Shown here: piece after piece, positions 2,875 through 33,687 of the stretch | Layout: each line of letters starts with the position of its first letter | How positions within the stretch are numbered: position 1 is the first letter of the stretch | NCBI RefSeq assembly: GCF_015999465.1 | Contig: NZ_CP065534.1 | Location: forward strand, 806,001 to 870,000 | From: Lonsdalea populi | GTDB taxonomy: Bacteria > Pseudomonadota > Gammaproteobacteria > Enterobacterales > Enterobacteriaceae | DNA length: 64,000 bases | Direction of reading: 5' to 3' | The notes under the pieces: model-generated | The model's input: only the letters and a program-made list of their open reading frames with translations | What the model was told of the DNA's origin: nothing | The model's database searches: none | Made by a program: the position numbers and the translations under genes

Positions 2875-2884
2875 GCGTTAATGA

Positions 2885-2924
2885 CCGTTCGGCCAAGCGG
2901 TTATCTCTATCGCTGGCCGAACGG
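2885..2924 (+). terminator. Long hairpin after the O-methyltransferase gene
   Basis: Perfect 11-base arms (CCGTTCGGCCA and TGGCCGAACGG) extended by GCG/CGC after one bulged base. The hairpin starts 10 bases after the methyltransferase stop. No run of T follows at once (a T-rich stretch begins about 12 bases later), so it may be a weak intrinsic terminator or an mRNA-stabilising hairpin. Confidence 0.5.
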
Positions 2925-4585: not shown

Positions 4586-4619
4586 GATCGTTTCCCTGTA
4601 TCGGTGAAGGACGAAAGGT

Positions 4620-5912: not shown

Positions 5913-5942
5913 CGCTATGCTCTCCGCGGATCGTTGATGAGC

Positions 5943-8249: not shown

Positions 8250-8269
8250 GTGACCTCCATAGCGCATAT

Positions 8270-9607: not shown

Positions 9608-9615
9608 GTCTTCTC

Positions 9616-10560
9616 CTATCGTCCGGCGATGCGCTGTGGGTCTGGGATGACGCTGCAAGCCCCGATAAAGGCGCCTGCGCCGATGGAAAGCAGGCCGCAG
9701 CGTTTTGAGAAGGGCTGAGCATTTTGCAGCCGGCGGCTCAACAGCAGAAAGGGATCGGCCGCACAGCAATGGCCCACGTCAGGCAATAACCGGGTATCGA
9801 TACGCTGTTCTAATTCAGGGTTGAGCCGCGTGAAGTTGAGCCAGGCGAGACGGTTGATATTGTGTGGTAGTAACACGGTATGCGATTGAAGTGAAAAGTG
9901 AATTTCTTTCAGTGCGAGAGCCGTCATCGCGTTGTGTTCGGCATAAAAGGCGCTCTTTTGCTGCGATTCGATAAATAACCCGGGCCAGAATTCAGCGCGG
10001 TGTTTCACAAAAGGAGGCGTCAGTTGGATACCGTCATCCTGATTGTCCAGCAGCATGGCGACAAAGCCATCGCCGAGAATGGTGCAGCCGGGGATATAAC
10101 GTTCCCCCAGCGCAAACATGCTGAGCGAATCGCCCAGCACCAGCACCGCGCGCTGCGACAGTCCGGCCCGAAAGAGCGACTGGATCATCTTGAGTCCCCA
10201 GAACCCGCCGCCGCAGTTGTGCTGATCGATTTCGTAGCGGCGCTTCACCTGTTTTAACGCCGGATGGCGGCGGATCAGTTCCGTCGTCAGGCCTTCCCCT
10301 TCAGCGGGCTGAATCGGCAGGGCATGCACGTAAATCAGCGTATCCACCGGCGTCTCTTCGGCGTGAACCTCAAGTCTGTCCAACTGGGATAAAAAGGTTT
10401 CAAGGAGTGAGGCAGCGCGTGGAAGCGCGGCGACATGCTCGATACCGAAGAGTTTGCTGAACACGCGAGCCTCGCTGCGGCTGCCGCCGGCCGCTTGAAT
10501 GACATCGACCGCGTCTACGCGCTCCGAGGGGATGTCGTCCACCATGCGGGTTAGTCGCAT
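9616..10560 (-). CDS. Ketosynthase III-like acyltransferase (KS pair 1, Cys-bearing subunit)
   Basis: A 314-residue thiolase-fold protein of the FabH/PqsC/CerJ type. Visible active-site features are Cys116 in QHNCGGGF, His233 in LPHNINR, and GHCCAADPF at 263-271. In FabH the last region carries the Asn of the Cys-His-Asn triad; here His264 and a conserved Asp269 are found instead. Such enzymes load an acyl group on Cys and pass it to a carbon, oxygen or nitrogen nucleophile. The start overlaps the upstream partner gene by 10 bases, suggesting coupled translation and a heterodimer. No malonyl-loading acyltransferase gene is nearby. Substrates unknown. Confidence 0.75.
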   Translation of the reverse strand: MRLTRMVDDIPSERVDAVDVIQAAGGSRSEARVFSKLFGIEHVAALPRAASLLETFLSQLDRLEVHAEETPVDTLIYVHALPIQPAEGEGLTTELIRRHPALKQVKRRYEIDQHNCGGGFWGLKMIQSLFRAGLSQRAVLVLGDSLSMFALGERYIPGCTILGDGFVAMLLDNQDDGIQLTPPFVKHRAEFWPGLFIESQQKSAFYAEHNAMTALALKEIHFSLQSHTVLLPHNINRLAWLNFTRLNPELEQRIDTRLLPDVGHCCAADPFLLLSRRLQNAQPFSKRCGLLSIGAGAFIGACSVIPDPQRIAGR

Positions 10561-11414
10561 GCTTTATTCTCCGTTCCCTGAAAGGCCAGTGCGGTTATCG
10601 TCGTTTCTTCCTGTAGCAACAGCAGGTGATCGTGGCGCGTGTCGCCTTGCGCCAGGGCAGCAAACAGCGAGGTGCACAACAGGCGATCGTCCGCCGGGAC
10701 AGGGGAGTCGTGGGCAGGCAGCAAAGACAGCAAGGTGGGACTGGCCACGAGATGATAGTTATCCGCCAGCCCAAAAAGGTGTTTTATCCCTTCACAATGC
10801 GTTGCCAACCCCGAGGCGTTCAGCGCGCTGCGTTGATAGCCCAGATAGCGCCAGCCCTCGTCGTCCCGATTCACGGCGACGATGCAGGCGCTGTTATGCG
10901 GCGCGAGCGTCTCCATCAGCGGGGAGCGATAGAGCAGGTGCTTTTGGTCGGCAATCAACAGCAGGCCCCGTCGGGCGCCGTGCCGAAGGTAGCGATGCAG
11001 CGCGTCAAAGGCGAAAAGCGGAGCGGACAGCCCACGGTCGCTGATGGCCAGCGCAAAACTCTGTTCGCTGAGATTCAACTGGTGAATAACGTGATTGACG
11101 ACGGACGTGCCCAGATGCAGGTCAGGCGTCCAGTGCGCCAGCATCACCGCGTCCACATCCCGGCAGTCGGTGACTTGCTGAAGCGATGGCAACAGTTGAT
11201 CCATCATGCGCACGAACGGCGCTTTGTCTTCGGCGGTAATGCACTCGACGACGTGGCTTTGAGCGGCATCCCACGGCAGTCCGTTCGACTGAAAAAACGC
11301 GGCGATGTAATCTTCCCAGTGTTCGACTTCATCCAGCCAGGCGGGGTTAAATGGTTCAAGCTCGCCAAACGTATTCCAGATGATGTGCCGGGGATGCAGG
11401 CTAAGGCTCATCAC
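10551..11414 (-). CDS. Degenerate ketosynthase III-like partner (KS pair 1)
   Basis: A 287-residue protein with an overall thiolase-like pattern, but the position expected for the catalytic cysteine reads ISDRGLSAPL, with Arg127 instead of Cys. It shares the signature AHWTPD (residues 94-99) with the partner protein encoded at 21509-22342. It overlaps the dehydrogenase gene upstream by 4 bases and the Cys-bearing ketosynthase downstream by 10 bases. This layout recalls Pseudomonas PqsB/PqsC, where one subunit lacks the nucleophile and completes the dimer. I infer a structural or substrate-binding partner, not an independent enzyme. Confidence 0.6.
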   Translation of the reverse strand: MMSLSLHPRHIIWNTFGELEPFNPAWLDEVEHWEDYIAAFFQSNGLPWDAAQSHVVECITAEDKAPFVRMMDQLLPSLQQVTDCRDVDAVMLAHWTPDLHLGTSVVNHVIHQLNLSEQSFALAISDRGLSAPLFAFDALHRYLRHGARRGLLLIADQKHLLYRSPLMETLAPHNSACIVAVNRDDEGWRYLGYQRSALNASGLATHCEGIKHLFGLADNYHLVASPTLLSLLPAHDSPVPADDRLLCTSLFAALAQGDTRHDHLLLLQEETTITALAFQGTENKACD

Positions 11415-12520
11415 TGCTCCTTACCGGCAAGAAAGCCGCGCCAGCCGTTGAGCAACTGAATATGCGATGTTCCTTCCATGTATTCGAAGGCAAACGCATC
11501 GCGGTATCGTTTCATGAGGGCCGGCTGATTCACCCAATATTCCGTGGGCAGAACGTGAGGAAGCCGGTGAGCGACCCGCTCGACGAACGCCGTAGCCTGC
11601 CTTTTGATCTGACTGGTTTGCCAGACGCGCGAACGCTGCTGCTGAAAGTGTTCACCCACCTCCATCAGGCGGTCGTGCAGCGAGTGGTATTGCCGCCACA
11701 GATCGTTTTCATGGCTATTTTCCCGAGCGAGCGTTTCCAGAAAACCGCGTGCGGTGCCCAGCGCCATCGCGGCGACCAGGGGGCGATGCTTCTCGAAGAC
11801 CTGAGTCAACGCATTCATGCCCTGTCGCAGGGGGCTGGTCGTCAATCCCAGGATGTGTTCAGAACGAACGGGGAACGCGTCAAACGTGATCCGGGATAAC
11901 CCCGCACCAGCAAGCCCGTAGGCTGCGAGCGGTTCGATAGCGATCGCTTCCGGCGCTTGTTTCGGTTCCACCATAATCAGCCGCGTTCTGTCGCCGTGCC
12001 GCGCGAACACCAGACCGATGCTGGCAATTTGCGCGCCGCCGATAAACATCTTGCTGCCCGTCAGCGTGAGTCCCTGCTTACCGCTGTCGAGGCGCGTCGT
12101 AATCGACGCGGCATCAGAGCCGATCTCCGGTTCGCTCACGGCGAAAAAGGTCCATGACGGCTGCGTCAGGAAGCGGGAAAAGAAAAGCTCCTGCTGCGCG
12201 TCGCTGCCCAGCATCTGCACGGCCCGGCAGGCAAGAGAGGTGCCGGGCAGAGCCAGTAAACAGCTGGCGTCCGATCGCGAAATATATTCCACGACGCGTA
12301 AATAGGTGGGGAAATGACGCATATCAAACGGCAATGCCGCGGCAGAGTCTCGCCAGGGATTGTATTTATCGGGCAGCCCGGTATGCGATAACGTTAATAA
12401 TAAATCATCCTTGATATGAGATACGCCTTCCTGAACGTTATCTTCGATCATCAAACCTGCGGAATAAAATTTATCCAGGCTTTTATCCAATACGTTCAGG
12501 TGATATTCATCCTTTCTCAC
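11411..12520 (-). CDS. Acyl-CoA dehydrogenase-like flavoprotein (carrier-bound oxidase 1)
   Basis: A 369-residue protein starting with GTG at 12520 behind GAGGGATAAAC. It has the central FAD/substrate region FFAVSEPEIGSDAASI and the C-terminal EYMEGTSHIQLLNG, whose Glu is at the catalytic-base position of short-chain acyl-CoA dehydrogenases. Homologues in natural-product pathways (prolyl-carrier oxidases such as CloN3 and PigA) desaturate amino acids tethered to carrier proteins. With stand-alone adenylation enzymes and carriers in the same operon, an aminoacyl-carrier oxidase is a better guess than a fatty-acid catabolic enzyme. It is related to, but clearly different from, the second oxidase at 14488-15636. 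Confidence 0.75.
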   Translation of the reverse strand: MRKDEYHLNVLDKSLDKFYSAGLMIEDNVQEGVSHIKDDLLLTLSHTGLPDKYNPWRDSAAALPFDMRHFPTYLRVVEYISRSDASCLLALPGTSLACRAVQMLGSDAQQELFFSRFLTQPSWTFFAVSEPEIGSDAASITTRLDSGKQGLTLTGSKMFIGGAQIASIGLVFARHGDRTRLIMVEPKQAPEAIAIEPLAAYGLAGAGLSRITFDAFPVRSEHILGLTTSPLRQGMNALTQVFEKHRPLVAAMALGTARGFLETLARENSHENDLWRQYHSLHDRLMEVGEHFQQQRSRVWQTSQIKRQATAFVERVAHRLPHVLPTEYWVNQPALMKRYRDAFAFEYMEGTSHIQLLNGWRGFLAGKEQ

Positions 12521-12616
12521 GTTTATCCCTCAGCCGATCCATGATGCCGCTATATATCTCCTAAGGCAGTCTAATCTTTGTCGAATCATTGAATTGATTC
12601 AGATTGCGGTTGGCGC

Positions 12617-13561
12617 TCAATGAACATCAGGAACATATTCCACAATGGCGGAGGCCGCCGTAACGCCTAAGCCAATACTGATTAATAAGGCTTTGTCGCC
12701 GGGCTTTATTTGTCTTGTTTTTATCAGGTGCTGCAAATTGATAAAAGGATCTGCGCCGAAACAGTGGCCATACAGAGGGATGTTTTCCATCACTATTTTT
12801 CCGACTTGCAAAGACAACGTTCTTTCAATCTCTTTCCAGGAAGACAGGTTGACGTTATGGGGCGCAATATAAGCAATATCATTAAAGCCCAGACCGGCGT
12901 GTTTCAGACTTTCTGACATGTGACGGCACACAAAATCGGTATAGATATGCGGGAAAAGGCCCGGGCTGGTGTCCGTAAAGTGGCCGCTGTTGAGGCTGAA
13001 CCGGCCATCGCGCGTCGTCGTCGTACTGAGCAGTCGCACCGGGCCGGGACGTCGCGAGACCAGCAGCACGCAGGCGGCTTCGCCCATGATGGTGGTGTCG
13101 GCGATTAACTGAACTCTGGGGTGGAATGCCTTCTCCGCGATGATCACCAGCGCGTATTCCTCGTCACCGAGCCAGGTGGCGATCTGCTCCAGCGCCACGA
13201 GTCCGGTGGCGCAATGGCTCATGGTGTACCCCGCATACTCGACGTGTTCTCCCACTATCTGGCTGACGAGCGACGATAGGATCGGCGCGCCGAAGGGCGT
13301 GACGGAAGGTATGGTATGGCAGTGCACGCAGAGCCTGATTTTATCCACGATTGCCGCATGGCGCTGGACGATGTTGCGCAGCGCAGGCGTTATGAGACCG
13401 GTCAAATCCTGATGTTTGTCGTGAGGAAACTGCCGCAGCCCATAGAAGCGTTCAAACATTCTGGTCTCGATGCGCGTCAGCCCCAGCGCGCGCGCCGCTT
13501 CGACCAGCGTCTGCATCTTCGGCGCGAAGACAATGTCCATGTCGTTGAGCGTCAAGCGCAT
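12617..13561 (-). CDS. Ketosynthase III-like acyltransferase (KS pair 2, Cys-bearing subunit)
   Basis: A 314-residue protein with Cys117 in TMSHCATGL, His235 in APHNVNL and GHCFGADPF at 265-273. As in KS pair 1, the FabH-type Asn is replaced by His (266) with a conserved downstream Asp (271). N-terminal similarity to the pair 1 enzyme (both begin MRLT and have a matching RMFERFYGL/RVFSKLFGI segment) suggests gene duplication. The gene begins inside the end of a small open frame (10-base overlap) and is followed by a 96-base gap before oxidase 1. Probably a condensing or acyl-transfer step with its own partner at 13812-14495. Confidence 0.75.
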   Translation of the reverse strand: MRLTLNDMDIVFAPKMQTLVEAARALGLTRIETRMFERFYGLRQFPHDKHQDLTGLITPALRNIVQRHAAIVDKIRLCVHCHTIPSVTPFGAPILSSLVSQIVGEHVEYAGYTMSHCATGLVALEQIATWLGDEEYALVIIAEKAFHPRVQLIADTTIMGEAACVLLVSRRPGPVRLLSTTTTRDGRFSLNSGHFTDTSPGLFPHIYTDFVCRHMSESLKHAGLGFNDIAYIAPHNVNLSSWKEIERTLSLQVGKIVMENIPLYGHCFGADPFINLQHLIKTRQIKPGDKALLISIGLGVTAASAIVEYVPDVH

Positions 13562-13818
13562 CCGTGAGTCTCCCGTCCGGCAGGGGATAAAAACGCGTCA
13601 CCTGCCGCGCTGGCATCGCCTCCCTCGTCATGCAGGAGCAGCACCTCCGGTTCATGCTTCGCGCCCCGTTCACGCCGGCAGCCCTGCCCGTCGGCAATGG
13701 GCAGACGCGTGGATGCCGTCGCCTGCCGCCCCCCGGTTTCCTGCCTGCGCAGCGGGCGGGGACGAGGAGGCTCGAAATCCGACGGCAACGCCGCTAATTT
13801 CTCGTCCTTTATCAACAT
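13552..13818 (-). CDS. Small protein of unknown function overlapping both neighbours
   Basis: An 88-codon frame that starts with ATG at 13818, inside the last codons of the degenerate ketosynthase gene (stop at 13812), and ends 10 bases inside the start of the next ketosynthase. This fits the overlapping style of the operon and fills what would otherwise be a 250-base hole. The protein is rich in Pro, Arg, Gly and Ala (FEPPRPRPLRRQETGG) and has no recognisable domain, signal peptide or membrane segment. It may be a real small protein, a worn remnant, or only a translation-coupling frame. No function is proposed. Confidence 0.4.
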   Translation of the reverse strand: MLIKDEKLAALPSDFEPPRPRPLRRQETGGRQATASTRLPIADGQGCRRERGAKHEPEVLLLHDEGGDASAAGDAFLSPAGRETHGCA

Positions 13819-14495
13819 GTCTGACCCACTATTTTATTTATTTTCATCGCGATAGGCGGGTGGTCGCCCATGGCGTCGAGCAGGACGTCGCCTTCCGAGG
13901 GCGACGATAGCCAGTCGGTCAGGCTCCGGTGCTCCTCTTTGGGGAGCGCGGCGCTCTCCCAGCGCCAGCCACCGGCGTCGCGGATCGCCGCTTTGGAGGT
14001 GAAATGCAGATACAGCAGGTGGGACAGCGCCTGCCCAGGGCGGGGCGTGAAACGGGTCATAGCGTCCAACACCAGCCAGCAGCCGCCGTGCTCTTGCGCC
14101 ATTGCGGCCGCCAGTTGCAGTTCAGACCATCCCGGTGTCGGGTGATCCACCGCCAGTCCGAGCACTTCACGATAGTGGCCCGTCAGCCAGATAAAGCTGG
14201 GCAGCATGGCGGATTTGCACTCTTTGGCCAGACCGGTGTGCAGATACAGCAGCGCTTCCGTTTCGTCTGCTCTCAGATTCTGGATGCTCTCAACCACTGC
14301 CGGGTGATGGGGGATATGTACGTCGTCGAACGCATTAGGGCACGTCGCCATGCGTATGGCCTGTGCCTCGACATTCGGGTGCAATGCGTGCCAGCAACTC
14401 AGACCGGCCAGGTCAAAGTCGTTCGCCGTCCGCCAGGAGATACTGGGGTGCAATAGGCCCGCCTGATCGATCCAGAACCGGGAAATATCACGCAT
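13812..14495 (-). CDS. Degenerate ketosynthase III-like partner (KS pair 2)
   Basis: A 227-residue protein, shorter than the other partners. The part resembling the ketosynthase N-terminal half (YLHTGLAKECKSAMLPSFIW, then VLGLAVDHPTPGWSELQLA) has no cysteine where the nucleophile should be, and the C-terminal half with the His region is shortened. It overlaps oxidase 2 by 8 bases and sits just before the pair 2 Cys-bearing enzyme. I place it in the ketosynthase-like superfamily by its position and by the pattern shared with the two other partner proteins; this is weaker than for those. It probably serves as the non-catalytic half of a heterodimer. Confidence 0.5.
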   Translation of the reverse strand: MRDISRFWIDQAGLLHPSISWRTANDFDLAGLSCWHALHPNVEAQAIRMATCPNAFDDVHIPHHPAVVESIQNLRADETEALLYLHTGLAKECKSAMLPSFIWLTGHYREVLGLAVDHPTPGWSELQLAAAMAQEHGGCWLVLDAMTRFTPRPGQALSHLLYLHFTSKAAIRDAGGWRWESAALPKEEHRSLTDWLSSPSEGDVLLDAMGDHPPIAMKINKIVGQTC

Positions 14496-15636
14496 AAACC
14501 TGCTCGCTTTTGAAGACGTGGCTGGCGTTCAGCAGGTGGATATTGCGTGTCCCTTCCGTGTATTCGAAACCGCTGATATCGCGCCAGGCTTTGCAAAAGA
14601 AAGGATCGCAAACCACCGCAGGATCGCAGGCGTGAACCAGATCATGCACCAACTGCTCCGCCAGCAGGGTGGTCTCTGCTTTGACGAGGCCGATGTGCCG
14701 GCTGATGCGCTCTCCGCGATCCATGCGTTCCGCGATGGTCAGAAGACGATGAAGTCCGGCGGATAATCGCCTGCGCATCGCCCGCAGGCGCGCGGCCTGA
14801 GCGCGCGGTAAATAGCCCGCGTCGACGACGTGATCCAGTAGCGCCCTGACCCCGCCCAGCGCCAGCGCGCCGACGCAGGGGCGCAGATTATCGAACGTCG
14901 CGAGCGTGGCGGAAGAAAAGCGCTGGGCGGGGTTCAGATGCGCGCCGACCAGCGCCTCCTCCGGCAGCCACATGTCTTCAAAGCGCAGGTGCGAAATATT
15001 ACTGCCGGGAACCCCAAAGACGGGCAGGCGGGTGGCGTGAAACCCATCAACCTTGGCCGGTTCAAACAGAAACATATTTAGACCCAGAGGACCTTCCGCC
15101 GTGCGGGCGAAGACAATGCCGATATCGGTGATGTGTCCGTTGCCGATGAAATATTTTTCCCCGCTGATACGCCATCCGCCGTCGATCTGGGTCGCCCGCG
15201 TTTGAATATCGCCCGCGTCCGATCCGCGTGCCGGTTCGCTCATGGCAAAGCAGCTGCGGCTTAATTTGGTTTTGAAATGGGTGAAAAAGATCTCCTGCTG
15301 CGCATCGCTGCCGATGGCCTCAATCACAAATCCCGACATACCGGGCGTGGGGCTGGCGAAAATAAGATTGGGATCGATATATCCCAGCGCTTCATAGAAA
15401 TAACAGCGTTGAGAAACCGTTAATTCATATAAAACGTCGCCATTTTCCAAAACCAATGGCGTGGGGTTCCACTTTTCAGGCAGCCCTAAACGATTGAGCT
15501 GCGGCGCTAACGCATAGTCATTGGTACGCAGGTAATTGTTGGCATCGGCCTCCAACAGCCGCCCGATATACCGGCCCGAATCGAAAGCCGTCATCGCTAA
15601 TACCCGAAGCGCATGATGTGTCGAACTGATTTCCAT
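14488..15636 (-). CDS. Acyl-CoA dehydrogenase-like flavoprotein (carrier-bound oxidase 2)
   Basis: A 382-residue protein with a good start (AGAGGAAATGTC before ATG). It shows CFAMSEPARGSDAGDI, the FAD/substrate segment of acyl-CoA dehydrogenases, and EYTEGTRNIHLLNAS, with the catalytic Glu before Gly-Thr. The overall plan matches oxidase 1, and both end with the LLN motif, so they are probably ancient duplicates that act on different carrier-bound substrates. It sits directly after the two adenylation enzymes (78 bases), so a likely role is alpha,beta-desaturation of an aminoacyl-carrier thioester. Substrate not visible. Confidence 0.75.
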   Translation of the reverse strand: MEISSTHHALRVLAMTAFDSGRYIGRLLEADANNYLRTNDYALAPQLNRLGLPEKWNPTPLVLENGDVLYELTVSQRCYFYEALGYIDPNLIFASPTPGMSGFVIEAIGSDAQQEIFFTHFKTKLSRSCFAMSEPARGSDAGDIQTRATQIDGGWRISGEKYFIGNGHITDIGIVFARTAEGPLGLNMFLFEPAKVDGFHATRLPVFGVPGSNISHLRFEDMWLPEEALVGAHLNPAQRFSSATLATFDNLRPCVGALALGGVRALLDHVVDAGYLPRAQAARLRAMRRRLSAGLHRLLTIAERMDRGERISRHIGLVKAETTLLAEQLVHDLVHACDPAVVCDPFFCKAWRDISGFEYTEGTRNIHLLNASHVFKSEQVYA

Positions 15637-15713
15637 GACATTTCCTCTGTCTGTTCAGGCGGCACGCTCATCACCCTTGAGACGTGCAGAATAGAGAGTA
15701 AATAAATTTTTTT

Positions 15714-17267
15714 TTATCCGGCTTGCAACGAGCGGGGATGCTGACTTTCTTCGGGCGTGGCGGTGATGAGAGGCAATAACGCCTGACGATCTATTTTTCC
15801 GTTTTGATTAAGGGGGAATTCAGCAATAAAGCGAATGCTCGTGGGAATCATATATTTGGGCAGCTGTTGGGATAAATGGACCCGAAATGCCTGCTCGCCG
15901 TCGGCGGCGTGTGGATTGAGCTGTACGAATAAAATCACGTCGGCCAATTTATGCTGCTGGTAGAGGGGCAGCGTTGTCGCCATGACCGTGTGAGCGAAAC
16001 TGCGCGCCGCGGCATCGATATCCTGTAAATCAACGCGGTTGCCATGCCATTTGACCTGTGAGTCGCGGCGTCCTTTGATGAACAAGTTACCCTGTGCATC
16101 CAGCCAGCCGAGATCGCCGGTGCGGTAGAACGCGACGCCGTGACGTGAGCCAAAAGCGGCATTGTTCGGGGGAGACGCCGGAAGATAGCCCAGCCCAACT
16201 TGATTGCCGTAGACGACGACTTCCCCAATGTCGCCTTGCGGCAGCGGCTTGTGATGCGCATCTTCGACGGCGACCCGCAGCGTGCCGCGAGGCCGACCCA
16301 GCGGGAGCAGGCCCGCGTGCTGCACGCTTGCGCCGTCTAGCGGATGCAGATGCGTCAGACAGGTTGTCTCCGTCGGGCCGTAGGCGTGTAGGATGTTGAG
16401 CGACGGAAAGCGGGCCAACAGGCGATCGATCAGCTGCGGGGAGACATATTCGCCTCCGACCATCAGGGTTTGAAGATGCGGTAGCGTCTCTGCGTTAAAA
16501 CGCGGATCGTGGCACATGATTTCCAGAAAGCTCGGAGTGGAGAACCCGCTCGACAGTCTGACGGCAGGCTCGGAGACCATCAGATTGAGGTTCAGACGGG
16601 GCAGCGCGTTGTACTCGTGCGGCAGCATGATGAGCGGCCGGCCTATGGCAAAAGCGGTGAAGAAATCCAGCAGCCCCATATCAAACGACAGCCGGGCATG
16701 ATTGAAATGCCCCTCATCATCCGCGCCCGCCGCGTGCAGTACGCGGTGATACCAGCCAAAAAACGCGCCGAAATTATCGCACCCGATCTGCACGCCTTTG
16801 GGTTGCCCGGTGCTGCCGGAGGTGGAGAGCACATAAAAGAGCGCATTGACGGAAGAGGGCGGGGCATAGCCGCCCGTGAAGCCGCCGTCCGGCAGGGCGG
16901 GCAGCCACAGGCAGCGATAGTGCTGATGGACTAACGGCGCGGTTTCCGGCTCTTCCCGCCCATCCAGAATCAGTTCCGTGCCGTAGAGCGCGGCGATACG
17001 CGCCACACGCAGCGGCGGGTTGACGCTGTCGACGACGGTAAACGGGATGCCGGACCAGGCGCAGGCCAGCAGCGCCGCCGCCGTGTCGCGCTCTTTGTGA
17101 CCGTAGATGAGGACCCGTTTCGGTTGCATACGCGCCAACTCGCCGCAGATCGCGCCGACCCGCGAGGCCACGTCGGCGTAACGCCAGCTTCCCTGCGCAT
17201 TAACGATGGCAATCCGGCGGTTGCTGAGAAGCTGTCGGCCGATCATCTGCATCATGGACGTAAACAT
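15714..17267 (-). CDS. Stand-alone amino-acid adenylation enzyme 2 (DltA-like)
   Basis: A 517-residue AMP-forming enzyme. The ATG at 17267 is chosen because AAAAGGGAAATACT precedes it; an upstream in-frame start at 17297 has no ribosome site. Core motifs are visible: STSGSTGQPKG (P-loop), YGPTETTC, YRTGDLGW and the catalytic lysine in NQNGKIDR. The FDMG segment keeps the Asp that binds the alpha-amino group in amino-acid-activating members. There is no fused carrier domain, so it must load a separate carrier, as DltA or CloN4 do. The gene starts 68 bases before the end of adenylation enzyme 1. Amino-acid choice cannot be read reliably by eye. Confidence 0.8.
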   Translation of the reverse strand: MFTSMMQMIGRQLLSNRRIAIVNAQGSWRYADVASRVGAICGELARMQPKRVLIYGHKERDTAAALLACAWSGIPFTVVDSVNPPLRVARIAALYGTELILDGREEPETAPLVHQHYRCLWLPALPDGGFTGGYAPPSSVNALFYVLSTSGSTGQPKGVQIGCDNFGAFFGWYHRVLHAAGADDEGHFNHARLSFDMGLLDFFTAFAIGRPLIMLPHEYNALPRLNLNLMVSEPAVRLSSGFSTPSFLEIMCHDPRFNAETLPHLQTLMVGGEYVSPQLIDRLLARFPSLNILHAYGPTETTCLTHLHPLDGASVQHAGLLPLGRPRGTLRVAVEDAHHKPLPQGDIGEVVVYGNQVGLGYLPASPPNNAAFGSRHGVAFYRTGDLGWLDAQGNLFIKGRRDSQVKWHGNRVDLQDIDAAARSFAHTVMATTLPLYQQHKLADVILFVQLNPHAADGEQAFRVHLSQQLPKYMIPTSIRFIAEFPLNQNGKIDRQALLPLITATPEESQHPRSLQAG

Positions 17268-18744
17268 AGTATTTCCCTTTTGACTGAGTTGCGGCACTGA
17301 CCGCGTGTCGATCCAGCTTGCTGTTGAAATTCAGGCACGGTTCACGGATGGCGTACCAGCGTCGGGGGATCATCCAGGGCGGCATGCGCGTCGCCAGCGT
17401 TTTCCCCAACTGCGCAAAGTCCGCGCCTTCACCTTCACAAAGCACAAACGCGCAAATCCCTTGCAGATAGCCTTGCCGGCTCCAGGTATCGACAAACGCC
17501 TCGCGCACGCCGGGCAGACTCAGAAGAACCTGTTCAATGTCGTTGAGATCGATGCGATACCCCTGCAGTTTGATCTCGCGATCGCCTCGGCCCTGAAAAT
17601 AGAAAACGCCGTCCCTGATGACGCCTCGGTCCCCGGTCCGGTAGGCTCTTTCGCCCCGGTCATTGATGAAAAAACGGGCCTGCTGTTCAGGCGGTGCGTT
17701 CAGATAACCAGAGCCCACCGCATGGCCGCTGATGATTAGCTCCCCAACCGCGCCTTCGTTCGGCGATAGGGTTATATCAGTGCCGGGACGGGCGACGCCG
17801 AGCGGCAACGGCCATGCCTCCTCGAAATGACGAGGATGGATGTCGATGGCGGTGACGGCGACGGTGCATTCGGTCGGGCCGTAAGTATTGGTGATCCGCG
17901 CGCCGGGAAAGCGTTGCCATAGCGCGGTGACCAGCGCTTTCGTCAACACTTCGCCGCAGAAAATAAAGTGCCTGAGCGCCGGAAGGGCGTCGGCATTAAA
18001 CTGCCGGTCGTTGAGATAACAGCGCGTGAGGCTTGGGGTCGAGACCCAGCAGGTCGTGCCCGCCGCCGCGTGGCGTTGGATCGCCAGGCGGGTGTTGAAA
18101 AAATGCTGGTGGTCGAGGACGACCATCGGTTTCAGGAACAGCCAGGAGAGCCATAGCTCGTAGAGCGACACGTCAAAGCAGTAGCGGATATTGCCGCTGA
18201 CCGCGCCGTCCAGCGAAAAGTCACGACGTAGCCAGCCGGTGAAGTCGGCGACATTGGCGTAGCTCACGCCAATGCCTTTGGGGTGTCCCGTCGTGCCGGA
18301 CGAAAACAGGATGTACATGTTTTCGTCCTCGGCGACGGTTCTGACGGCGTGGCAGAGGTCCGGCGCCGCTGACATATCGCCTTCTTCCCGCACCGTGAGC
18401 TGCCGGCACGCCGCCGGATTAGCTCGTTCGGTGGTATTGAGCAGGAGAGACGCCTGCGCGCCGTGCTGGATCTGCTGGATCCGTGCGTCGCTGTTGTCGG
18501 CTTCTACGGGGACAAACGTTCTGCCCGCCAGAATGCAGGCCCACATCGCCGTCAGATAGCGTAAGTCCTTGTGACCATAGATGAGGACGGGCGCGCCGCC
18601 CTGCGCGCACAGGGTGACGGCCAGCCGCGCCGCGCCGCGGTAGAGCGCGTCAAACGTCATACTGCGCTCGCCCAGCAGTGCGGCGGGCCGGTGACAGCCG
18701 TTGAATCGGGCGAAAATCGCCAGCAGCGCCGACTGTCCTTTCAT
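17200..18744 (-). CDS. Stand-alone amino-acid adenylation enzyme 1 (DltA-like)
   Basis: A 514-residue AMP-forming ligase. It shows LFSSGTTGHPKGIG (P-loop), FDVSLYELW (with the Asp typical of amino-acid activators), NTYGPTECTVA, YRTGDRG and the catalytic Lys in FNSKLDR. It starts in a TGATG junction with the carrier-protein gene upstream, so it and that carrier are made together and probably work together. The C-terminus runs about 30 residues past the catalytic lysine into the start of the next gene. The paired single-domain adenylation proteins resemble in layout the VfmO/VfmP proteins of the Dickeya Vfm signal locus; this is from memory, not from a search. Confidence 0.8.
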   Translation of the reverse strand: MKGQSALLAIFARFNGCHRPAALLGERSMTFDALYRGAARLAVTLCAQGGAPVLIYGHKDLRYLTAMWACILAGRTFVPVEADNSDARIQQIQHGAQASLLLNTTERANPAACRQLTVREEGDMSAAPDLCHAVRTVAEDENMYILFSSGTTGHPKGIGVSYANVADFTGWLRRDFSLDGAVSGNIRYCFDVSLYELWLSWLFLKPMVVLDHQHFFNTRLAIQRHAAAGTTCWVSTPSLTRCYLNDRQFNADALPALRHFIFCGEVLTKALVTALWQRFPGARITNTYGPTECTVAVTAIDIHPRHFEEAWPLPLGVARPGTDITLSPNEGAVGELIISGHAVGSGYLNAPPEQQARFFINDRGERAYRTGDRGVIRDGVFYFQGRGDREIKLQGYRIDLNDIEQVLLSLPGVREAFVDTWSRQGYLQGICAFVLCEGEGADFAQLGKTLATRMPPWMIPRRWYAIREPCLNFNSKLDRHAVSAATQSKGKYYVYVHDADDRPTASQQPPDCHR

Positions 18745-19007
18745 CAGGCCGATGCCGGAGAAGGAATGCGGGTGGCGATGTAGTCCGCGATGGAGCCGAT
18801 GGACTCGAAATGCTTGATGTCCAGCGTCGCGGGATCCAAATGCAGCGTATCGATCGCGTCTTCCAGATACATGATTAGTTCGATGTACAACCCGCTGTCG
18901 AAGCCCAAATCGCGTTCTATCTGGGTATCCCGGTGCAGCTCTGAGGTATCGTCGATATCCATCACCAGCGCGATAGCGGCGATGACCTGAGATTCATAGT
19001 TCGGCAT
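18744..19007 (-). CDS. Carrier protein 1
   Basis: An 87-residue acyl or peptidyl carrier protein. DLGFDSGLY contains the serine (Ser38) expected to receive the 4'-phosphopantetheine arm, at the start of helix II, followed by an acidic helix (ELIMYLEDAID). It overlaps the acyl ligase gene upstream by 14 bases and the adenylation enzyme 1 gene by one base (TGATG). It is one of three free carriers in the locus. No phosphopantetheinyl transferase gene is seen in the window, so activation would depend on one elsewhere. Confidence 0.85.
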   Translation of the reverse strand: MPNYESQVIAAIALVMDIDDTSELHRDTQIERDLGFDSGLYIELIMYLEDAIDTLHLDPATLDIKHFESIGSIADYIATRIPSPASA

Positions 19008-20550
19008 GTTTCTCTCCTGAAAGACCGGCCGTGGGGGATGAGGTCTGGCTGAGCGCGCATAACCGCAGGCGATCGATTTTTTGGTTGCTGTTTTTGGGCA
19101 ATGCGCCGCAAAAAAGGAAGCGATGGGGGATCAGATGATGCTCCATTCTGTCCTTACACCAGTCGTGCATCTGTCGGGGTTCCATCGCCTGTTGGGTTTC
19201 AATCCACGCGACGATTTCGTCACCGTAAACGGCATGCGGGATGCCGACGACGGCCACCTGAACGACGTGCGGATGGGTGGAAATGATGCTTTCTACTTCT
19301 CGTGGGGCGACCTTCTCGCCGCAGGCGTTCAACACGTCGTCCATCCGGCTGAGGAAATAGAGAAAGCCGTCCTCGTCAAGGCGACAGCGATCTCCCGTAT
19401 ACAACACGCTCTCGCCGGGGAATCGCCCCGGACGTAACTTTTCGGCCGTTTTTTGCGGGTTGTTCCAGTAGCCCCGCATCACGGTTTCGCCGCGTATCAC
19501 CAGCTCACCGATCGCGTTGCAGCGGTGCGCTTCTCCGTCGGCGTCGACGACCCACAGTTCCGTCCCGGGGATCGCCTTGCCCACGCTCTGCGTTCGGACG
19601 CTGAGTTCACTCGGATCCAGCCAGGTACAGCGATGGCACTCGGTCAGGCCGTACATGGAAAAGAGGCGCGCCTGGGGAAACACCGTCGTCAGCGTGGCGA
19701 TATCGCTGGGATGTAACGCCGCCGACGTGCTGGTCACCGTTTTGACGGAGGAGAAGTCGAAACGCCGACTCAATCGGGCAATCAGGCTGACCATTGTCGG
19801 CACCAGGGGAAAGACGTTCGCGCCTTGCTGGACGAGCCGGTTGAGCGCGAACAGCGGGCGACTGAAGTTTTTTTCGATGATGACCGTCGCGCCGGTCAAT
19901 GCCGCCATCGTGATTTGATGCAGGCCATAGTCGAAGCTGAGCGGCAGAGCGCAGTAAATGCGGTCACGGGCATCCAACTGCAAATAGTGGGCGACGGACT
20001 GCGATGCGGCGATCATGTTGCGCTGGGTCAGCATGACGCCTTTGGGATGCCCGGTGGAGCCGGAGGTGTAAATGATGCTGGCCAGATCGAGGCTTAACGG
20101 CAGCGCCAGCGTGCAGGCGTATGCGGCGCGGGCGATCTTAGCGAATGCGGCATCATTCGCCACCCACCGCTGTGGACGGCTTTTCATTGCAGAGGCCGCG
20201 CGCAGGGCTTCCTCCTCACGCTCGGCATCCACGATCATCAGACTGGCCGTGCAGTCGTCGGCGATCCACGCCAGTTTTTCTGCTTTGGTTTCGGGATGGA
20301 GCGGGACATAGACGGCGCCGCAGCGCTGGGTCGCCCAGAAGCAGGCGACCAGATCGATGCTGTTGCTCATCAGCACGATCACCCGGTCGCCGCGAGCAAG
20401 CGCGAGATGCTGCATCCAGCCCGCGAGCACTTCCACCCGCTGGCGTAGGGCGGCGAAGCTGATGGCGGCGCGATCGTCGATGAGCGCGACCTTGTCGGGA
20501 TCCTGCTGACTGCATTCGTCCAGATATTGACTGAGAGACTGAACATTCAT
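18994..20550 (-). CDS. AMP-dependent acyl ligase (exosortase-associated ligase type)
   Basis: A 518-residue ligase. The start at 20550 forms an ATGA overlap with the upstream ketosynthase gene and gives the family N-terminus; the longer frame upstream is that gene read in another phase. Motifs: YTSGSTGHPKGVM, LPLSFDYGLHQI, MYGLTECHRC, YTGDRCRLDEDG and Lys in NSNQKIDR. The FDYGL segment is like that of AMP ligases found with PLP decarboxylases and carrier proteins in exosortase-A loci. Here too a decarboxylase and carriers are in the same operon. The enzyme probably charges a carrier with an amino or acyl acid, the first step of one branch. Confidence 0.75.
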   Translation of the reverse strand: MNVQSLSQYLDECSQQDPDKVALIDDRAAISFAALRQRVEVLAGWMQHLALARGDRVIVLMSNSIDLVACFWATQRCGAVYVPLHPETKAEKLAWIADDCTASLMIVDAEREEEALRAASAMKSRPQRWVANDAAFAKIARAAYACTLALPLSLDLASIIYTSGSTGHPKGVMLTQRNMIAASQSVAHYLQLDARDRIYCALPLSFDYGLHQITMAALTGATVIIEKNFSRPLFALNRLVQQGANVFPLVPTMVSLIARLSRRFDFSSVKTVTSTSAALHPSDIATLTTVFPQARLFSMYGLTECHRCTWLDPSELSVRTQSVGKAIPGTELWVVDADGEAHRCNAIGELVIRGETVMRGYWNNPQKTAEKLRPGRFPGESVLYTGDRCRLDEDGFLYFLSRMDDVLNACGEKVAPREVESIISTHPHVVQVAVVGIPHAVYGDEIVAWIETQQAMEPRQMHDWCKDRMEHHLIPHRFLFCGALPKNSNQKIDRLRLCALSQTSSPTAGLSGEKHAEL

Positions 20551-21512
20551 CGCGGTGACCGCTCCTCTTTTCGATGGAAGACCCGTGCGCCAAAGGTGCC
20601 CGCGACGCCTGCCGCCACCGCCAGAAAGTAGCCCGAACGAGGGGCCGACGGGCTGAAACAGCAATCGTGCAGGTTGATAAAACCGTCGCCGCAAAAACAG
20701 TGGCCAAGCCGATAGAGATGGGTACGGAATACCCGATCGCGCGGCACATTCAACTGGTCGGTAATGCGATCAAACGTGATCGGGCTCATGTGATAGGGAA
20801 GGATGCCGTCGAGCCGATCGGCGCTGATTCCGGCGTCGGCCAGCGCCCGATGGATGGCTCGCATCATCGTCGGCATAAATTCATGGTCGTAACGGTTTTC
20901 GAGCGACGGACTACTGTGGTAGGTGCGGCTGCCGATGCCGCCGATCATCGCCTGTCCGACGCCTTGCACCGTACAGCCCGGCAGCGTGTCATCCTCCGCC
21001 AACAGCAGCGCAGTACAGCCCTCGCCGAAGATCCCGTTTTGATTGGCGTACTGAATCGTTTGATGAAAACACTTCTCGCCCGTCAGCAGGACGGCATAAC
21101 GCGGGCCGTTCTCCTCCTCGCCCGACAATAAGCTCGTCAGCAGTGAAAGCGCGTTAAACGAAGAGGCGCAGGAGTTTTGCGTCGCGGACAAAATCTCCGC
21201 CTGAGCGGGCAGGAGGGGCGCCGCCATTTTTCTCAAGCCGTCAGCGCCGAAGGGAAAGGTGCCGTTCAGCGAGTGCGCATAGGCCAGATAGCGTATCCGT
21301 CCGCGCTTGTCGGGATGCCGGGAGAGCAGCTTTTCAAGACAGCCTTTTAGCAACTGGGGCAACGAGGCGTCGGGGAACAGGCAGGCCGACTCCAGCTTCA
21401 AAAACCGGGAGAAAATCTTGTGATTGCGTTCACCCCACCGGTAGCGCGCCTGGAGCGCATTCAGGGGCGTGAGCTTCGGGTTGATGAGGGTGGCGATATC
21501 AACAATGTTCAT
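20547..21512 (-). CDS. Ketosynthase III-like acyltransferase (KS pair 3, Cys-bearing subunit)
   Basis: A 321-residue protein with Cys115 in TQNSCASSF. The region where pairs 1 and 2 read PHN reads LPYHMSP here, so a His (241) is present but one position later. GHCFCGDGF at 270-278 repeats the G-H-C-x-x-x-D signature that replaces the FabH Asn region. It overlaps its partner gene upstream by 4 bases and the acyl ligase gene downstream by 4 bases. Its position between the decarboxylase and the ligase suggests it joins the product of that branch to another carrier-bound unit. Confidence 0.75.
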   Translation of the reverse strand: MNIVDIATLINPKLTPLNALQARYRWGERNHKIFSRFLKLESACLFPDASLPQLLKGCLEKLLSRHPDKRGRIRYLAYAHSLNGTFPFGADGLRKMAAPLLPAQAEILSATQNSCASSFNALSLLTSLLSGEEENGPRYAVLLTGEKCFHQTIQYANQNGIFGEGCTALLLAEDDTLPGCTVQGVGQAMIGGIGSRTYHSSPSLENRYDHEFMPTMMRAIHRALADAGISADRLDGILPYHMSPITFDRITDQLNVPRDRVFRTHLYRLGHCFCGDGFINLHDCCFSPSAPRSGYFLAVAAGVAGTFGARVFHRKEERSPR

Positions 21513-22342
21513 GCCGTTTCCCTCTTTGCGCTGTAAATCACGGGGGATGTTTGCCCATGGGCAATTGACAGCAGCATCGTCGGCCCCTCGGGATTCGCCC
21601 GCAGAGAGTCCGCCAAGGCATAAAACGGAGCGGCGCTGAGGCGCGAGGGGTCAGGCGTGATCGTCGAGATAACCGCCTCTGGCGGAAAGCCGGGCGGCAG
21701 CGTGCCAATCACCACGACCGGCTCCGGCGGCGTGTCGTCCCGATCCGCACAGTGTGGCGTCCACGGATAAGGCGATAGCGCGATGCGTCTTTCGCCAGGC
21801 TGCCGGTCAAGCCACAGCGCCGCGCCGCTGGCCCTGATCGCTCCCGGACTGAAACAGGCGGTGGGGTGGAGTAGCAGCGGTTGGTCGAGGCTCACCAGCA
21901 GGGCTTTCCCCCGGTGGGGTGGAAGGTAGCGGTCGATGAGCGCGAGCGCCTGAAAGGGCGCGGTTAACCCGCAGTCGCTGACGGCAAAGGCATAGGCGCG
22001 AAGGGCTCCGATGCGGTGCAGAATAAAATTGGTGACCGAGCCGCCCATCACGCAGTCTGGGGTCCAGTGGGCGACGACGACGATATCTACCGTCTGCAGA
22101 TCGTGGTTTGACGCCAACGTGTCAATCAGGTGCGAGGCAATTTGCTGAAAGCTGACTCGCTCCAAAGACGCCAGCCAGGTCTGGACTTCCGTCATGGCGC
22201 CGTGTGCTTTCCCATTGGAGGTATAGAAGCCTTCCAGCCAGTCGGTCACGATCTCCGGCGCGTCGGCGACGGCATCGCGCCAGAGATGAACGCGATCTTC
22301 CTGAAAACACTGAATGCCTGCGACATCGAAATACAAAGGCAT
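21509..22342 (-). CDS. Ketosynthase III-like partner (KS pair 3)
   Basis: A 277-residue protein sharing the signature AHWTPD (91-96) with the pair 1 partner. Unlike that protein it keeps a cysteine (Cys124 in VSDCGLTAP) at the place aligned with the nucleophile. The C-terminal half has no clear His motif, so it is unlikely to be a complete enzyme. The ATG lies 2 bases after the decarboxylase stop and the end overlaps the Cys-bearing ketosynthase by 4 bases. It is probably the second subunit of a heterodimer; the retained Cys may be a relic or an acyl-holding site. Confidence 0.6.
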   Translation of the reverse strand: MPLYFDVAGIQCFQEDRVHLWRDAVADAPEIVTDWLEGFYTSNGKAHGAMTEVQTWLASLERVSFQQIASHLIDTLASNHDLQTVDIVVVAHWTPDCVMGGSVTNFILHRIGALRAYAFAVSDCGLTAPFQALALIDRYLPPHRGKALLVSLDQPLLLHPTACFSPGAIRASGAALWLDRQPGERRIALSPYPWTPHCADRDDTPPEPVVVIGTLPPGFPPEAVISTITPDPSRLSAAPFYALADSLRANPEGPTMLLSIAHGQTSPVIYSAKRETA

Positions 22343-22344: not shown

Positions 22345-23673
22345 CTACGCTCGCTGTTTCTCAAGTGACGGGGATAGCAAGACGGGTTCGGCCTGTTGCT
22401 GACGCAGCAGATGGGCCATATCGTCAGGCCGACGGATCATGACGGCGCGATCGCCATCGACCAATACTTCGGCGGGGTAGCCAAAACTCAGAAAATAGAC
22501 GGGAGAGGCGGTGGGGCCGTATGCGCCCGAGTTGAACAGGCCGATGAGATCTCCCGCCTCAAGCGTGGGTAACAGCACATTTTCGCCGATGATGTCGGTG
22601 GGCGTGCACAACGGGCCGGTCAGATCGTAACGCTGCAGCGCTACGCCCGGTTGTTCCGCGCCAAGTCGCTCCGTGGGGAAGTTTTTTCGGATCACCGCGC
22701 CCAAACCGGCGGCAGCGCCGTGACAGTTGGAGCCGCCGTCACAAATGGCAAATCGCTTATCCCGCGACGATTTGACGTAGCGGACACGGGTCAGAAAAAC
22801 GCCGCTGCGAGCCACGATGAATCGCCCCAGCTCCATCACCAACTTTACGCGTGGATAGTGTTGCTGAAACCGGCTGATAGGCTCCTGCAACAACCGGCCC
22901 AGTAAGGCAAGATCCAGCGGCGTCTCCTTCTCGTAGTAGGCGATCCCCAGCCCGCCGCCGATATCGACAAACTCCAGTTCAACGCCGGTTTCTTGCTGAC
23001 ATTTTTCGGCGGTGCGCAGGATATTGAGGGTGTTGTGGGCAATGGCTTGCGCATCCAGAATCCGCGTACCCAGATAGATATGAATGCCGCACAGCCGCAA
23101 GTGTGGGTAGGCGTGTCGCTGCGCCATCAGGCTCAGCGCCTGTGATTCATCTAGGCCGAACTGTCGCGGCTTGCCGCTCATGACGAGACGGGCTTTAGCG
23201 GGCGCAAAGTCTGGGTTAATGCGCAGTGCAAAACGCTGCCGTTTACCCTGTTCAGCGGCAATCTGATTAAGCATCTCCAGTTCATGCCGGGACTCCACCA
23301 CCACCGCGTGGATCCCCAGTTCGACGCTTCTCCGGAGTTCCGCATAAGATTTTGCCGGCCCTACGAAGATGATGTCGTCGGGTTGGACGCCGGCCGTCAA
23401 CGCGGTTTCAAGTTCAGGCAGCGAACACACTTCACAGCCTACCTGCTGTTGGTGGATCAGGCTGACCAATGACAGATTCGGGTTCGCTTTGAGCGAATAG
23501 AAAAAATGAAGTTCGGGCGGCAAAACGGCTTTAAGTTGTCGCAGATCGTCCTTGATTTGATTGGCGCTATAAATATAACAGGGCGTACCAACGGTATCGG
23601 CGAGTTTATTATACTCGACCCCTTCGATATTATTTTTTGTTATGTATGTGCTGTCGTATTTACAGTGGCGCAT
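22345..23673 (-). CDS. PLP-dependent decarboxylase, alanine-racemase fold (LysA/BtrK/exosortase-associated type)
   Basis: A 442-residue fold-type III PLP enzyme. FFYSLKANPN carries the PLP lysine (Lys62), followed by HIYLGT, the phosphate-binding GGGLGI, ELGRFIV and GPLCTPTDII (the Cys-containing active-site loop). In diaminopimelate and ornithine decarboxylases these form a dimeric active site. Two related groups act with carrier proteins: BtrK, which decarboxylates glutamyl carrier in butirosin synthesis, and decarboxylases of exosortase-A loci. The gene overlaps the carrier gene upstream by 14 bases, which favours a carrier-bound substrate. Expected outcome: an amino acid becomes an amine or shortened omega-amino acyl group. 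Confidence 0.8.
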   Translation of the reverse strand: MRHCKYDSTYITKNNIEGVEYNKLADTVGTPCYIYSANQIKDDLRQLKAVLPPELHFFYSLKANPNLSLVSLIHQQQVGCEVCSLPELETALTAGVQPDDIIFVGPAKSYAELRRSVELGIHAVVVESRHELEMLNQIAAEQGKRQRFALRINPDFAPAKARLVMSGKPRQFGLDESQALSLMAQRHAYPHLRLCGIHIYLGTRILDAQAIAHNTLNILRTAEKCQQETGVELEFVDIGGGLGIAYYEKETPLDLALLGRLLQEPISRFQQHYPRVKLVMELGRFIVARSGVFLTRVRYVKSSRDKRFAICDGGSNCHGAAAGLGAVIRKNFPTERLGAEQPGVALQRYDLTGPLCTPTDIIGENVLLPTLEAGDLIGLFNSGAYGPTASPVYFLSFGYPAEVLVDGDRAVMIRRPDDMAHLLRQQQAEPVLLSPSLEKQRA

Positions 23674-23959
23674 GCTGAATGCTCTCTGCCAGGTAATGGC
23701 TCAACGCATTAATATTTGAAAAGTTGCCGAAAAACTCATTATCCATTCGCTCAAAAAGATCAATATTCTTTCCGGTAATTTTCTCAATGCGATCATTCAG
23801 TCCGGCAATCAGCTCGACCAATTTTACTGAGTCGAGTATGCCGGAAAAACCATATAATTCGCGGCCGGATAGGACCAGGTTGATTCGGTGCTCATCCAGA
23901 CCAAGACTCTCAAGCTCGCTGGTGATTATTGTTATTAAATCATTAATAATGTCAGCCAT
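23660..23959 (-). CDS. Carrier protein 2
   Basis: A 99-residue carrier protein. FSGILDSVKLVELI places Ser44 at the phosphopantetheine site, with Asp before and a hydrophobic helix after. GGGAGAGGC precedes the ATG. It is the first gene of the large leftward operon, transcribed from the divergent promoter region at 23960-24218, and overlaps the PLP decarboxylase by 14 bases. That tight pairing suggests this carrier holds the substrate of the decarboxylase, as BtrI does for BtrK. Confidence 0.8.
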   Translation of the reverse strand: MADIINDLITIITSELESLGLDEHRINLVLSGRELYGFSGILDSVKLVELIAGLNDRIEKITGKNIDLFERMDNEFFGNFSNINALSHYLAESIQHAPL

Positions 23960-25146: not shown

Positions 25147-25401
25147 ATGGAAACTCTAGACATTATTAAGCAAGCTCTTCAGGACGTCCTCGAAACGTCG
25201 TCGCTGAACGTGACGGAAAAGACGCGTTTCGAAGAAGATCTGGATCTGGACTCCGTGAACTTTGTTCAATTTCTTTTGACGCTTGAGGACAGCATCGAGG
25301 GGCTGATGTTCGACCCCGATCACATCAGTCAACACTCTTTTTCCAGCGTCGGTTCGCTGATCGCGTGGCTTGACGCCTGGCAAGGCGCAGAATCGGCATG
25401 A
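25147..25401 (+). CDS. Carrier protein 3
   Basis: An 84-residue carrier protein. EEDLDLDSVNFVQFLLTLED has the phosphopantetheine Ser36 in DSV and an acidic helix II. It lies 10 bases after the fourth ketosynthase-like gene and overlaps the next gene by 4 bases. It is the only carrier in the rightward operon, so it may serve the fourth ketosynthase and the dehydrogenase-like protein that follows. Confidence 0.85.
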   Translation: METLDIIKQALQDVLETSSLNVTEKTRFEEDLDLDSVNFVQFLLTLEDSIEGLMFDPDHISQHSFSSVGSLIAWLDAWQGAESA

Positions 25402-29795: not shown

Positions 29796-29800
29796 AGAAT

Positions 29801-33677: not shown

Positions 33678-33687
33678 CGGTTTCTCC

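Follow-up and report, generated by a model that had tools for sequence, protein, structure and literature searches.

A dissociated gene cluster of Lonsdalea populi with ketosynthase III-like proteins and degenerate partners, a candidate pathway to a dehydro-beta-alanine-containing peptide

The afc and bolagladin pathways are antifungal-type systems of Burkholderia, and AFC-BC11 is a lipopeptide of the Burkholderia cepacia complex (PMC12186527, PMC7756342). The parts of these papers considered here already establish a logic in which aspartate becomes carrier-bound beta-alanine and then dehydro-beta-alanine, with a peptide-bond enzyme resembling beta-ketoacyl-carrier-protein synthase III (KAS III). 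AfcQ and AfcP load aspartate on a carrier and decarboxylate it to beta-alanine in vitro, and the KAS III-like AfcL, whose Cys/His/Asp triad superposes on that of ChlB3, is loaded with (beta-Ala)3 by a surrogate thioester and transfers this chain to the amine of Lys-S-CoA (PMC12186527). BolO and BolN are proposed to carry out the same loading and on-carrier decarboxylation, and beta-alanine replaces dehydro-beta-alanine in the product when bolQ is deleted (PMC7756342). Here we describe a gene cluster in a 64,000-nucleotide stretch of the Lonsdalea populi genome (NZ_CP065534.1, positions 806,001 to 870,000; hereafter the window). It extends from about 7581 to 28379, and genes are cited by their lower coordinate (Table 1). 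We put the probability at roughly 55% that the cluster encodes an enlarged non-ribosomal pathway of afc/bolagladin type, one that is dissociated and does without condensation domains and that would make a dehydro-beta-alanine-containing peptide with amide bonds formed by ketosynthases (KSs).

The features that the cluster shares with the two Burkholderia systems are a VinN-type ligase with its pocket Arg, a BtrK/VinO-type decarboxylase, a free carrier, KAS III-like proteins with Cys/His/Asp and a dehydrogenase. As in afc, the ligase and the pyridoxal phosphate (PLP)-dependent decarboxylase are discrete, condensation domains are missing, and several KAS III-like proteins are present; in afc, AfcL forms the peptide bond and AfcR has a Thr/His/Glu triad (PMC12186527). 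However, afc relies on a single carrier and also encodes a fatty acyl-AMP ligase (AfcA), a citrate synthase and an O-methyltransferase (PMC12186527), whereas in the window two carriers are firm and a third is probable, and they are accompanied by two DltA-like enzymes, four KSs with Cys, two degenerate partners, a half acyl-CoA dehydrogenase, a cytochrome P450 and a MATE-type exporter. The bolagladin genes offer a VinN-like BolO, a BtrK-like BolN, the carrier BolC, the KAS III homologues BolM and BolP and the dehydrogenase BolQ, which makes dehydro-beta-alanine, but they feed a tetramodular non-ribosomal peptide synthetase (NRPS), and BolM and BolP carry Ser and Thr where the four window KSs carry Cys (PMC7756342). 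VinN, VinL and VinO of vicenistatin biosynthesis also activate an Asp-type side chain on a free carrier and decarboxylate it there, but these starter genes feed a modular type I polyketide synthase (PMC11284099). The window cluster is not organised as a modular NRPS, its adenylating enzymes, carriers and KSs being separate genes, and the only condensation-domain-like open reading frame (ORF) found, at 3188, is isolated and lies beyond the conserved core. We know of no KS/partner pairs in the vicenistatin starter system. The preliminary description of this locus, made from the sequence alone, had proposed a dissociated assembly line in which carriers stand free and adenylation enzymes are encoded alongside, which agrees with the families found. 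It had also called the arrangement unfamiliar and had named a match to a described pathway as a ground for refutation. Such a match largely exists at the level of pathway type, in the afc and bolagladin papers as far as considered (PMC12186527, PMC7756342), but no description naming this cluster or its product was found in titles and abstract openings of open-licence PMC papers.

From the gene content, protein families, KS motifs, fold of partner 21509, conserved adjacency and conserved pockets, we infer substrates, bond type, in-cell pairing, order of steps and product as follows. Ligase 18994 would activate the side-chain carboxylate of L-Asp and load a free carrier, decarboxylase 22345 would convert the loaded Asp to carrier-bound beta-alanine, and the DltA-like enzymes 15714 and 17200 would load or attach two further amino acids. 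The KSIII-like proteins would hold the growing acyl or peptidyl chain on their Cys, and their His/Asp pair would transfer it to the amino group of the following carrier-bound unit to give an amide bond; the pseudo-KS partners 21509 and 10551 would be the second subunits of heterodimers, with KSd and KSb respectively. Desaturation of units to the dehydro-beta-alanine type would fall to dehydrogenases 11411 and 14488, possibly together with the half-subunit 25398, and the chain would be released by the hydrolase, tailored by the P450 and exported by the MATE protein. A bolder version, which we consider less likely than not, makes the KSIII/pseudo-KSIII heterodimers stand-alone replacements for condensation domains, each forming one amide bond of a polydehydropeptide that a full/half dehydrogenase pair would desaturate; twin complexes would then serve both joining and oxidising, in a cluster thinly spread over Pseudomonadota, Bacillota and Actinomycetota.

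Besides linear gramicidin synthase, the best PDB match of ligase 18994 is 3wvn, listed as 'Non-ribosomal peptide synthetase', which we take to be VinN. With pocket positions assigned by eye from printed alignments, all 14 proteins compared have the pocket Arg, among them the putative afcQ product of Burkholderia arboris, and most of the remaining letters (DYHLTTMRCK) differ from those of Burkholderia (DASGATMRSK). Arg331 of VinN and Arg311 of AfcQ are said to hold the alpha-carboxylate, which directs activation to the carboxylate of the side chain (PMC12186527, PMC7756342). The next-best PDB match of decarboxylase 22345 after BtrK is a diaminopimelate decarboxylase (9.9e-55); we rejected a plain diaminopimelate decarboxylase because BtrK scores better in the PDB, although the lysA cut-off is passed. 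The cluster has three adenylating enzymes, the VinN-type ligase having fatty-acid-CoA ligase scores below cut-off; the two DltA-like enzymes have mostly conserved pockets in the different genera, so they probably serve defined amino acids. Carriers 18744 and 25147 match PP-binding, and 23660 has no Pfam match, a weak profile match to carrier 25147 and an LDS motif whose Ser is kept in all rows.

Both full dehydrogenases (11411 and 14488) keep the Glu of the EGT motif expected of an acyl-CoA-dehydrogenase-type desaturase. Halves like 25398 occur in the Agrobacterium vitis and Gemmobacter clusters, a Paenibacillus ORF matches weakly (E 0.035), and a 202-residue product of Streptomyces decoyicus resembles the half by reading of its sequence; this recurrence suggests that half and full dehydrogenase act as a pair. 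Prodigiosin-type oxidation of a prolyl carrier was considered and rejected, the PigA and RedW models scoring no better than other acyl-CoA dehydrogenase models. An exosortase-A cluster, which shares the ligase and decarboxylase families, was also rejected, since no KS-annotated gene was found in the about 21 kb covered of the Aureimonas, Sinorhizobium and Sphingomonas plasmids.

A glutamate variant of the loading step, in which ligase and decarboxylase would make carrier-bound gamma-aminobutyrate (GABA) as in butirosin biosynthesis and the dehydrogenases would give 4-aminocrotonyl units, is in our view unlikely, though it deserves some weight. The closest decarboxylase match, BtrK, acts on a glutamyl-carrier, which makes GABA possible and tells against aspartate. 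The place expected for the VinN-type ligase is taken by a pre-ATP-grasp/ATP-grasp protein in each of the three Gram-positive loci examined, and no separate-gene match to that ligase was found there; BtrJ is an ATP-grasp enzyme. However, the VinN-type ligase with its Arg points to Asp-type substrates, though most pocket letters differ from those of Burkholderia, and BolN and AfcP, also grouped with BtrK or VinO, serve Asp in the published accounts as far as considered (shown for AfcP, proposed for BolN).

The cluster contains four KSIII-like genes, KSb (9616), KSc (12617), KSd (20547) and KSa (24219). Single KS sequences give weak scores in Pfam- and NCBIfam-type searches, and a profile of 15 KSs matches solved FabHs (2ebd, 1.9e-21), ChlB3, CerJ and PqsC. 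The preliminary description had named three KSIII-like genes, and these prove to be KSIII relatives by this profile; it had not included the fourth, on the plus strand. The Cys-His-Asn triad of FabH is absent from the window KSs, with His at the catalytic Asn position in 4/4; in printed alignments, four FabH chains, of which two seem to be the same enzyme, read GN at this place, and ChlB3 reads GH....D. Cys and the His and Asp of GHxxxxD are retained in all 38 KSs compared, a chosen subset of 85 KS ORFs. The FabH-type PHxxN His is lost in 7/8 KSa and one place later in 9/9 KSd, and it is retained in KSb, KSc and KSe (n = 21), where each type is that of the best-matching window KS, except that KSe is defined by position; the AfcO-like protein of B. 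arboris and four rows of the B. cenocepacia locus L056, which have no clade label, stand outside the 38. In the tree, KSa, KSb and KSd each form one clade (support 100/99 or better), as do the KSc of Pseudomonadota (100/99), with the KSc of Bacillota and Actinomycetota outside that clade. This fits four KS types that would have arisen before the cluster spread through these genera.

Because the GHxxxxD pattern of ChlB3 replaces the FabH Asn and AfcL provides a precedent, acyl transfer to amines is favoured for the window KSs over decarboxylative condensation. ChlB3 and CerJ are KSIII-like acyltransferases that move acyl groups to hydroxyls in glycosylated antibiotics; GHxxxxD replaces GNTS in ChlB3, and to our knowledge neither has a pseudo-KS partner. 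The Claisen-type chemistry implied by the preliminary description is thus disfavoured, and so is its comparison with PqsB/PqsC except for the inactive twin. PqsBC of Pseudomonas aeruginosa joins octanoate and 2-aminobenzoylacetate to a quinolone. That the pairs are PqsBC-like condensing enzymes making C-C bonds between carrier-bound units, with the endogenous FabD loading the malonyl units, seems to us improbable, a little more so than the glutamate variant. The inactive twin is all that the window pairs share with PqsBC, whereas the FabH Asn is His in every window and compared KS, the active-site pattern fits an acyltransferase, the neighbours are beta-amino-acid enzymes, and no ketoreductase or dehydratase was found among 30 ORFs scanned with Pfam. 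A type II polyketide pathway was rejected on the lost Asn and the same scan for reductases and dehydratases.

Partners 21509 and 10551 belong to one family. The preliminary description had placed a degenerate partner beside each of its three KSs and inferred three joining steps. The predicted structure of 21509 is confident and has a KSIII/thiolase fold by structure comparison, with ChlB3 ranked top by VIA-align, so that a thiolase-fold subunit lacking the nucleophile adjoins KSd (by model) and KSb (by family); the overlaps of 4 nucleotides (21509/KSd) and 10 nucleotides (10551/KSb) also held. The third, 13812, gave a low-confidence model from a 7-row alignment and weak profile matches. There are four KS genes and two demonstrable pairs, which does not bear out three joining steps. 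In a gene-neighbourhood search over two phyla, 37 of 38 complete partner ORFs are directly followed by a KS ORF. Both window partners are among the 38, as are many that are closely related to one another; this count omits five partner ORFs cut by locus ends and partner matches weaker than E 1e-6, such as that of L056. Conversely, 37 of 85 KS ORFs have a partner directly upstream and 48 have none of this family, so pairing is limited to some KS types. We infer that 21509 and KSd, and 10551 and KSb, form heterodimers. In locus L056 (8684-18858, unannotated), two KSs each directly follow a KS-like ORF without Cys, which suggests that pairing extends beyond the window's own subfamily; these KSs surround a VinN-type ligase, a BtrK-like decarboxylase, a carrier and two dehydrogenase-like ORFs. 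It is very improbable that the partners are decaying paralogues without function, retained by operon hitch-hiking, for although their nucleophile region varies freely, A. vitis has no KSd partner and the 48 KS ORFs lack one directly upstream, the partners are full-length open frames with Asp123, Gly125, Asp153 and Gln154 invariant over 31 sequences, their adjacency to KSs is conserved, and each of the 6 of 198 family genomes that have any partner match has exactly two.

Several observations weigh against the aspartate-based, afc/bolagladin-type reading. For the comparison we used a B. arboris locus (L062) with KS, KS, decarboxylase, ligase and KS-like genes in succession, which is probably the afc cluster because this order matches the letters afcL, O, P, Q, R. 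The window proteins share little identity with those of Burkholderia: 32% for the ligase and 27-36% for the decarboxylase (in L062, 32% and 27%, respectively), and 19-26% for KSs where the match covers at least 140 residues. The window KS profile matches the AfcO-like (3.5e-32) and AfcR-like (7e-10) genes of L062 but misses its AfcL-like gene, and the putative afcL matches KSc over 70 residues only (30%, E 5e-4). Since this match is so short and the profile misses the gene, the analogy to AfcL is one of shared triad, not of close kinship. The partner profile finds nothing in L062, and the word 'heterodimer' is absent from the main text of the afc paper (PMC12186527). Within the window, KSc and KSa have no demonstrated partner, just as the KSd of A. 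vitis has none of its own. Decarboxylase 22345 passes the NCBIfam lysA (diaminopimelate decarboxylase) cut-off, at 308.4 against 297.9 bits. Ligase 18994 scores higher with the exosortase-associated acyl ligase (389 bits) and long-chain fatty-acid-CoA ligase (323.5) models of NCBIfam than with amino-acid adenylation (274), none reaching its cut-off. A Pfam scan of 40 ORFs turned up no citrate synthase of the kind that serves the malate/citrate-derived fatty acyl tail, and a dedicated acyl starter is not apparent. The weak AfcL match and the passed lysA cut-off lower our confidence and slightly raise that in two of the alternatives. Because the scan gave no citrate synthase and no fatty acyl ligase stands out, the cluster is, judged by its gene content, a variant beside AFC-BC11 and bolagladin rather than either pathway proper.

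The distribution of the cluster is sporadic. All 4 other same-genus genomes searched contain matches, and KSd is 88-92% identical to its counterparts there and in named Lonsdalea records. A scan of a species-genome collection with two peptide patterns from KSd, which is not a census, gave 30 loci, 4 in Lonsdalea, 7 in Pseudomonas, 13 in Paenibacillus and one each in Prodigiosinella, Xenorhabdus, Vibrio, Rahnella, Bacillus and Actinoplanes. Plasmid records with a match (n = 18) add A. vitis, Gemmobacter, Tritonibacter, Rhizobium, Streptomyces, Burkholderia and more Rahnella. At E of at most 1e-25 the KS profile matches 2 of 369 class genomes, the window's genome included. In the stretches compared, Lonsdalea, Prodigiosinella, Xenorhabdus and Vibrio share one gene order; Rahnella and Pseudomonas show it as well, except that the KSa block was not seen in them.

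The coordinates given in the preliminary description match the gene calls of this analysis, and the probable regulators beside the cluster reach 31219. The real start of the P450 probably lies within the listed TTG ORF; the first ATG of ligase 18994 is at 20550, and its listed ORF begins at TTG 20694. At the position of the 88-residue remnant, the alpha/beta hydrolase is full-length in Lonsdalea loci L027 and L029, Xenorhabdus, Vibrio, Rahnella and Pseudomonas; a loss like the window's is seen in L026, and Prodigiosinella locus L030 has no match at the same place. Kinase and regulator are both 67% identical in L030, and the kinase also has matches in L021, L023, L031 and L032. These two genes and the following FtsX/MacB permease, ABC ATPase and HlyD adaptor adjoin the cluster at 28485-35663 on the minus strand; the A. 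vitis and Gemmobacter clusters are also flanked by an adaptor/ABC/FtsX exporter. On the other side, major facilitator superfamily exporters, an O-methyltransferase, a lone condensation-domain-like protein and a sulfotransferase adjoin at 249-6941, and may be tailoring genes or a separate cluster. Further away, at 45883-53004 on the plus strand, a group II intron reverse transcriptase is followed by TcpQ-, secretin- and PilO-like pilus genes (Pfam).

Table 1. Genes of the candidate cluster and its flank in window positions, with the ATP-grasp genes of Gram-positive loci.
Feature	Position	Strand	Basis or remark
DUF2807 protein	7581..8267	-	Pfam; 32-33% matches in loci L021, L023; adjoins Rahnella cluster too
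Cytochrome P450, predicted tailoring oxidase	8270..9769	-	Pfam p450 2.4e-47; downstream of KSb in Rahnella too
KSb, KSIII-like acyltransferase, Cys/His/Asp	9616..10560	-	Profile, motif comparison, tree
PTb, degenerate thiolase-fold partner of KSb	10551..11414	-	Same family as modelled 21509; overlaps KSb
Acyl-CoA dehydrogenase	11411..12520	-	Pfam; EGTSHI motif Glu kept
KSc, KSIII-like acyltransferase, Cys/His/Asp	12617..13561	-	Pfam ACP_syn_III_C 3e-17; motifs, tree
88-residue ORF, truncated remnant of alpha/beta hydrolase gene	13552..13818	-	Full-length in several relatives
Small conserved protein, perhaps a truncated partner of KSc or KSa	13812..14495	-	Profile: 19 ORF matches including the window's own
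Acyl-CoA dehydrogenase	14488..15636	-	Pfam; EGTRNI motif Glu kept
DltA-like adenylating enzyme	15714..17297	-	Pocket letters DMLSMGACLK
DltA-like adenylating enzyme	17200..18744	-	Pocket letters DVYSICTVAK
Free carrier protein	18744..19007	-	Pfam PP-binding 4e-6, above cut-off
VinN-type ligase	18994..20550	-	Pocket DYHLTTMRCK with Arg; 3wvn 3.9e-65
KSd, KSIII-like acyltransferase	20547..21512	-	Cys115/His271/Asp276; profile, motifs, tree
PTd, degenerate thiolase-fold partner of KSd	21509..22342	-	Predicted structure, fold search; overlaps KSd
BtrK/VinO-type PLP decarboxylase (aminoacyl-carrier decarboxylase)	22345..23673	-	Best PDB matches BtrK 7ru7/2j66, 1.5e-79
Probable third carrier protein, LDS motif	23660..23959	-	Ser kept in 15/15 rows
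KSa, fourth KSIII-like acyltransferase	24219..25136	+	FabH-type PHxxN His lost; Cys/His/Asp kept
Free carrier protein	25147..25401	+	Pfam PP-binding 1.3e-5, above cut-off
Half acyl-CoA dehydrogenase	25398..26087	+	C-terminal domain only, without EGTxxI motif
MATE-type exporter	26069..27421	+	Pfam MatE; matches in L022, L024, L026-L032, Bacillota loci
Alpha/beta hydrolase, candidate chain release	27372..28379	+	Pfam; matches beside MATE in L022, L024, L026-L032
Histidine kinase and sigma-54-type response regulator, which probably regulate the cluster	28485..31219	-	Pfam
ATP-grasp protein, Gram-positive versions	L042 10941-12338; L025 10946-12331; L054 10946-12334		

In the literature considered, AfcL is the one reconstituted case of peptide-bond formation by a KAS III-like enzyme (PMC12186527). 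Beyond the afc and bolagladin papers as far as considered (PMC12186527, PMC7756342), the window cluster adds a further two adenylating enzymes of DltA-like type, additional carriers, a dehydrogenase half-subunit and the conserved pairing of KS with pseudo-KS. If our proposal is true, a conserved family with four KSs and dedicated pseudo-enzyme partners would represent a wider alternative to condensation domains, and the combination of GHxxxxD, a partner and a BtrK/VinN-type pair would provide a sequence rule for spotting such pathways. The cluster would then point to a candidate product, perhaps with bioactivity, in Lonsdalea, Rahnella, Pseudomonas, Xenorhabdus and Paenibacillus.

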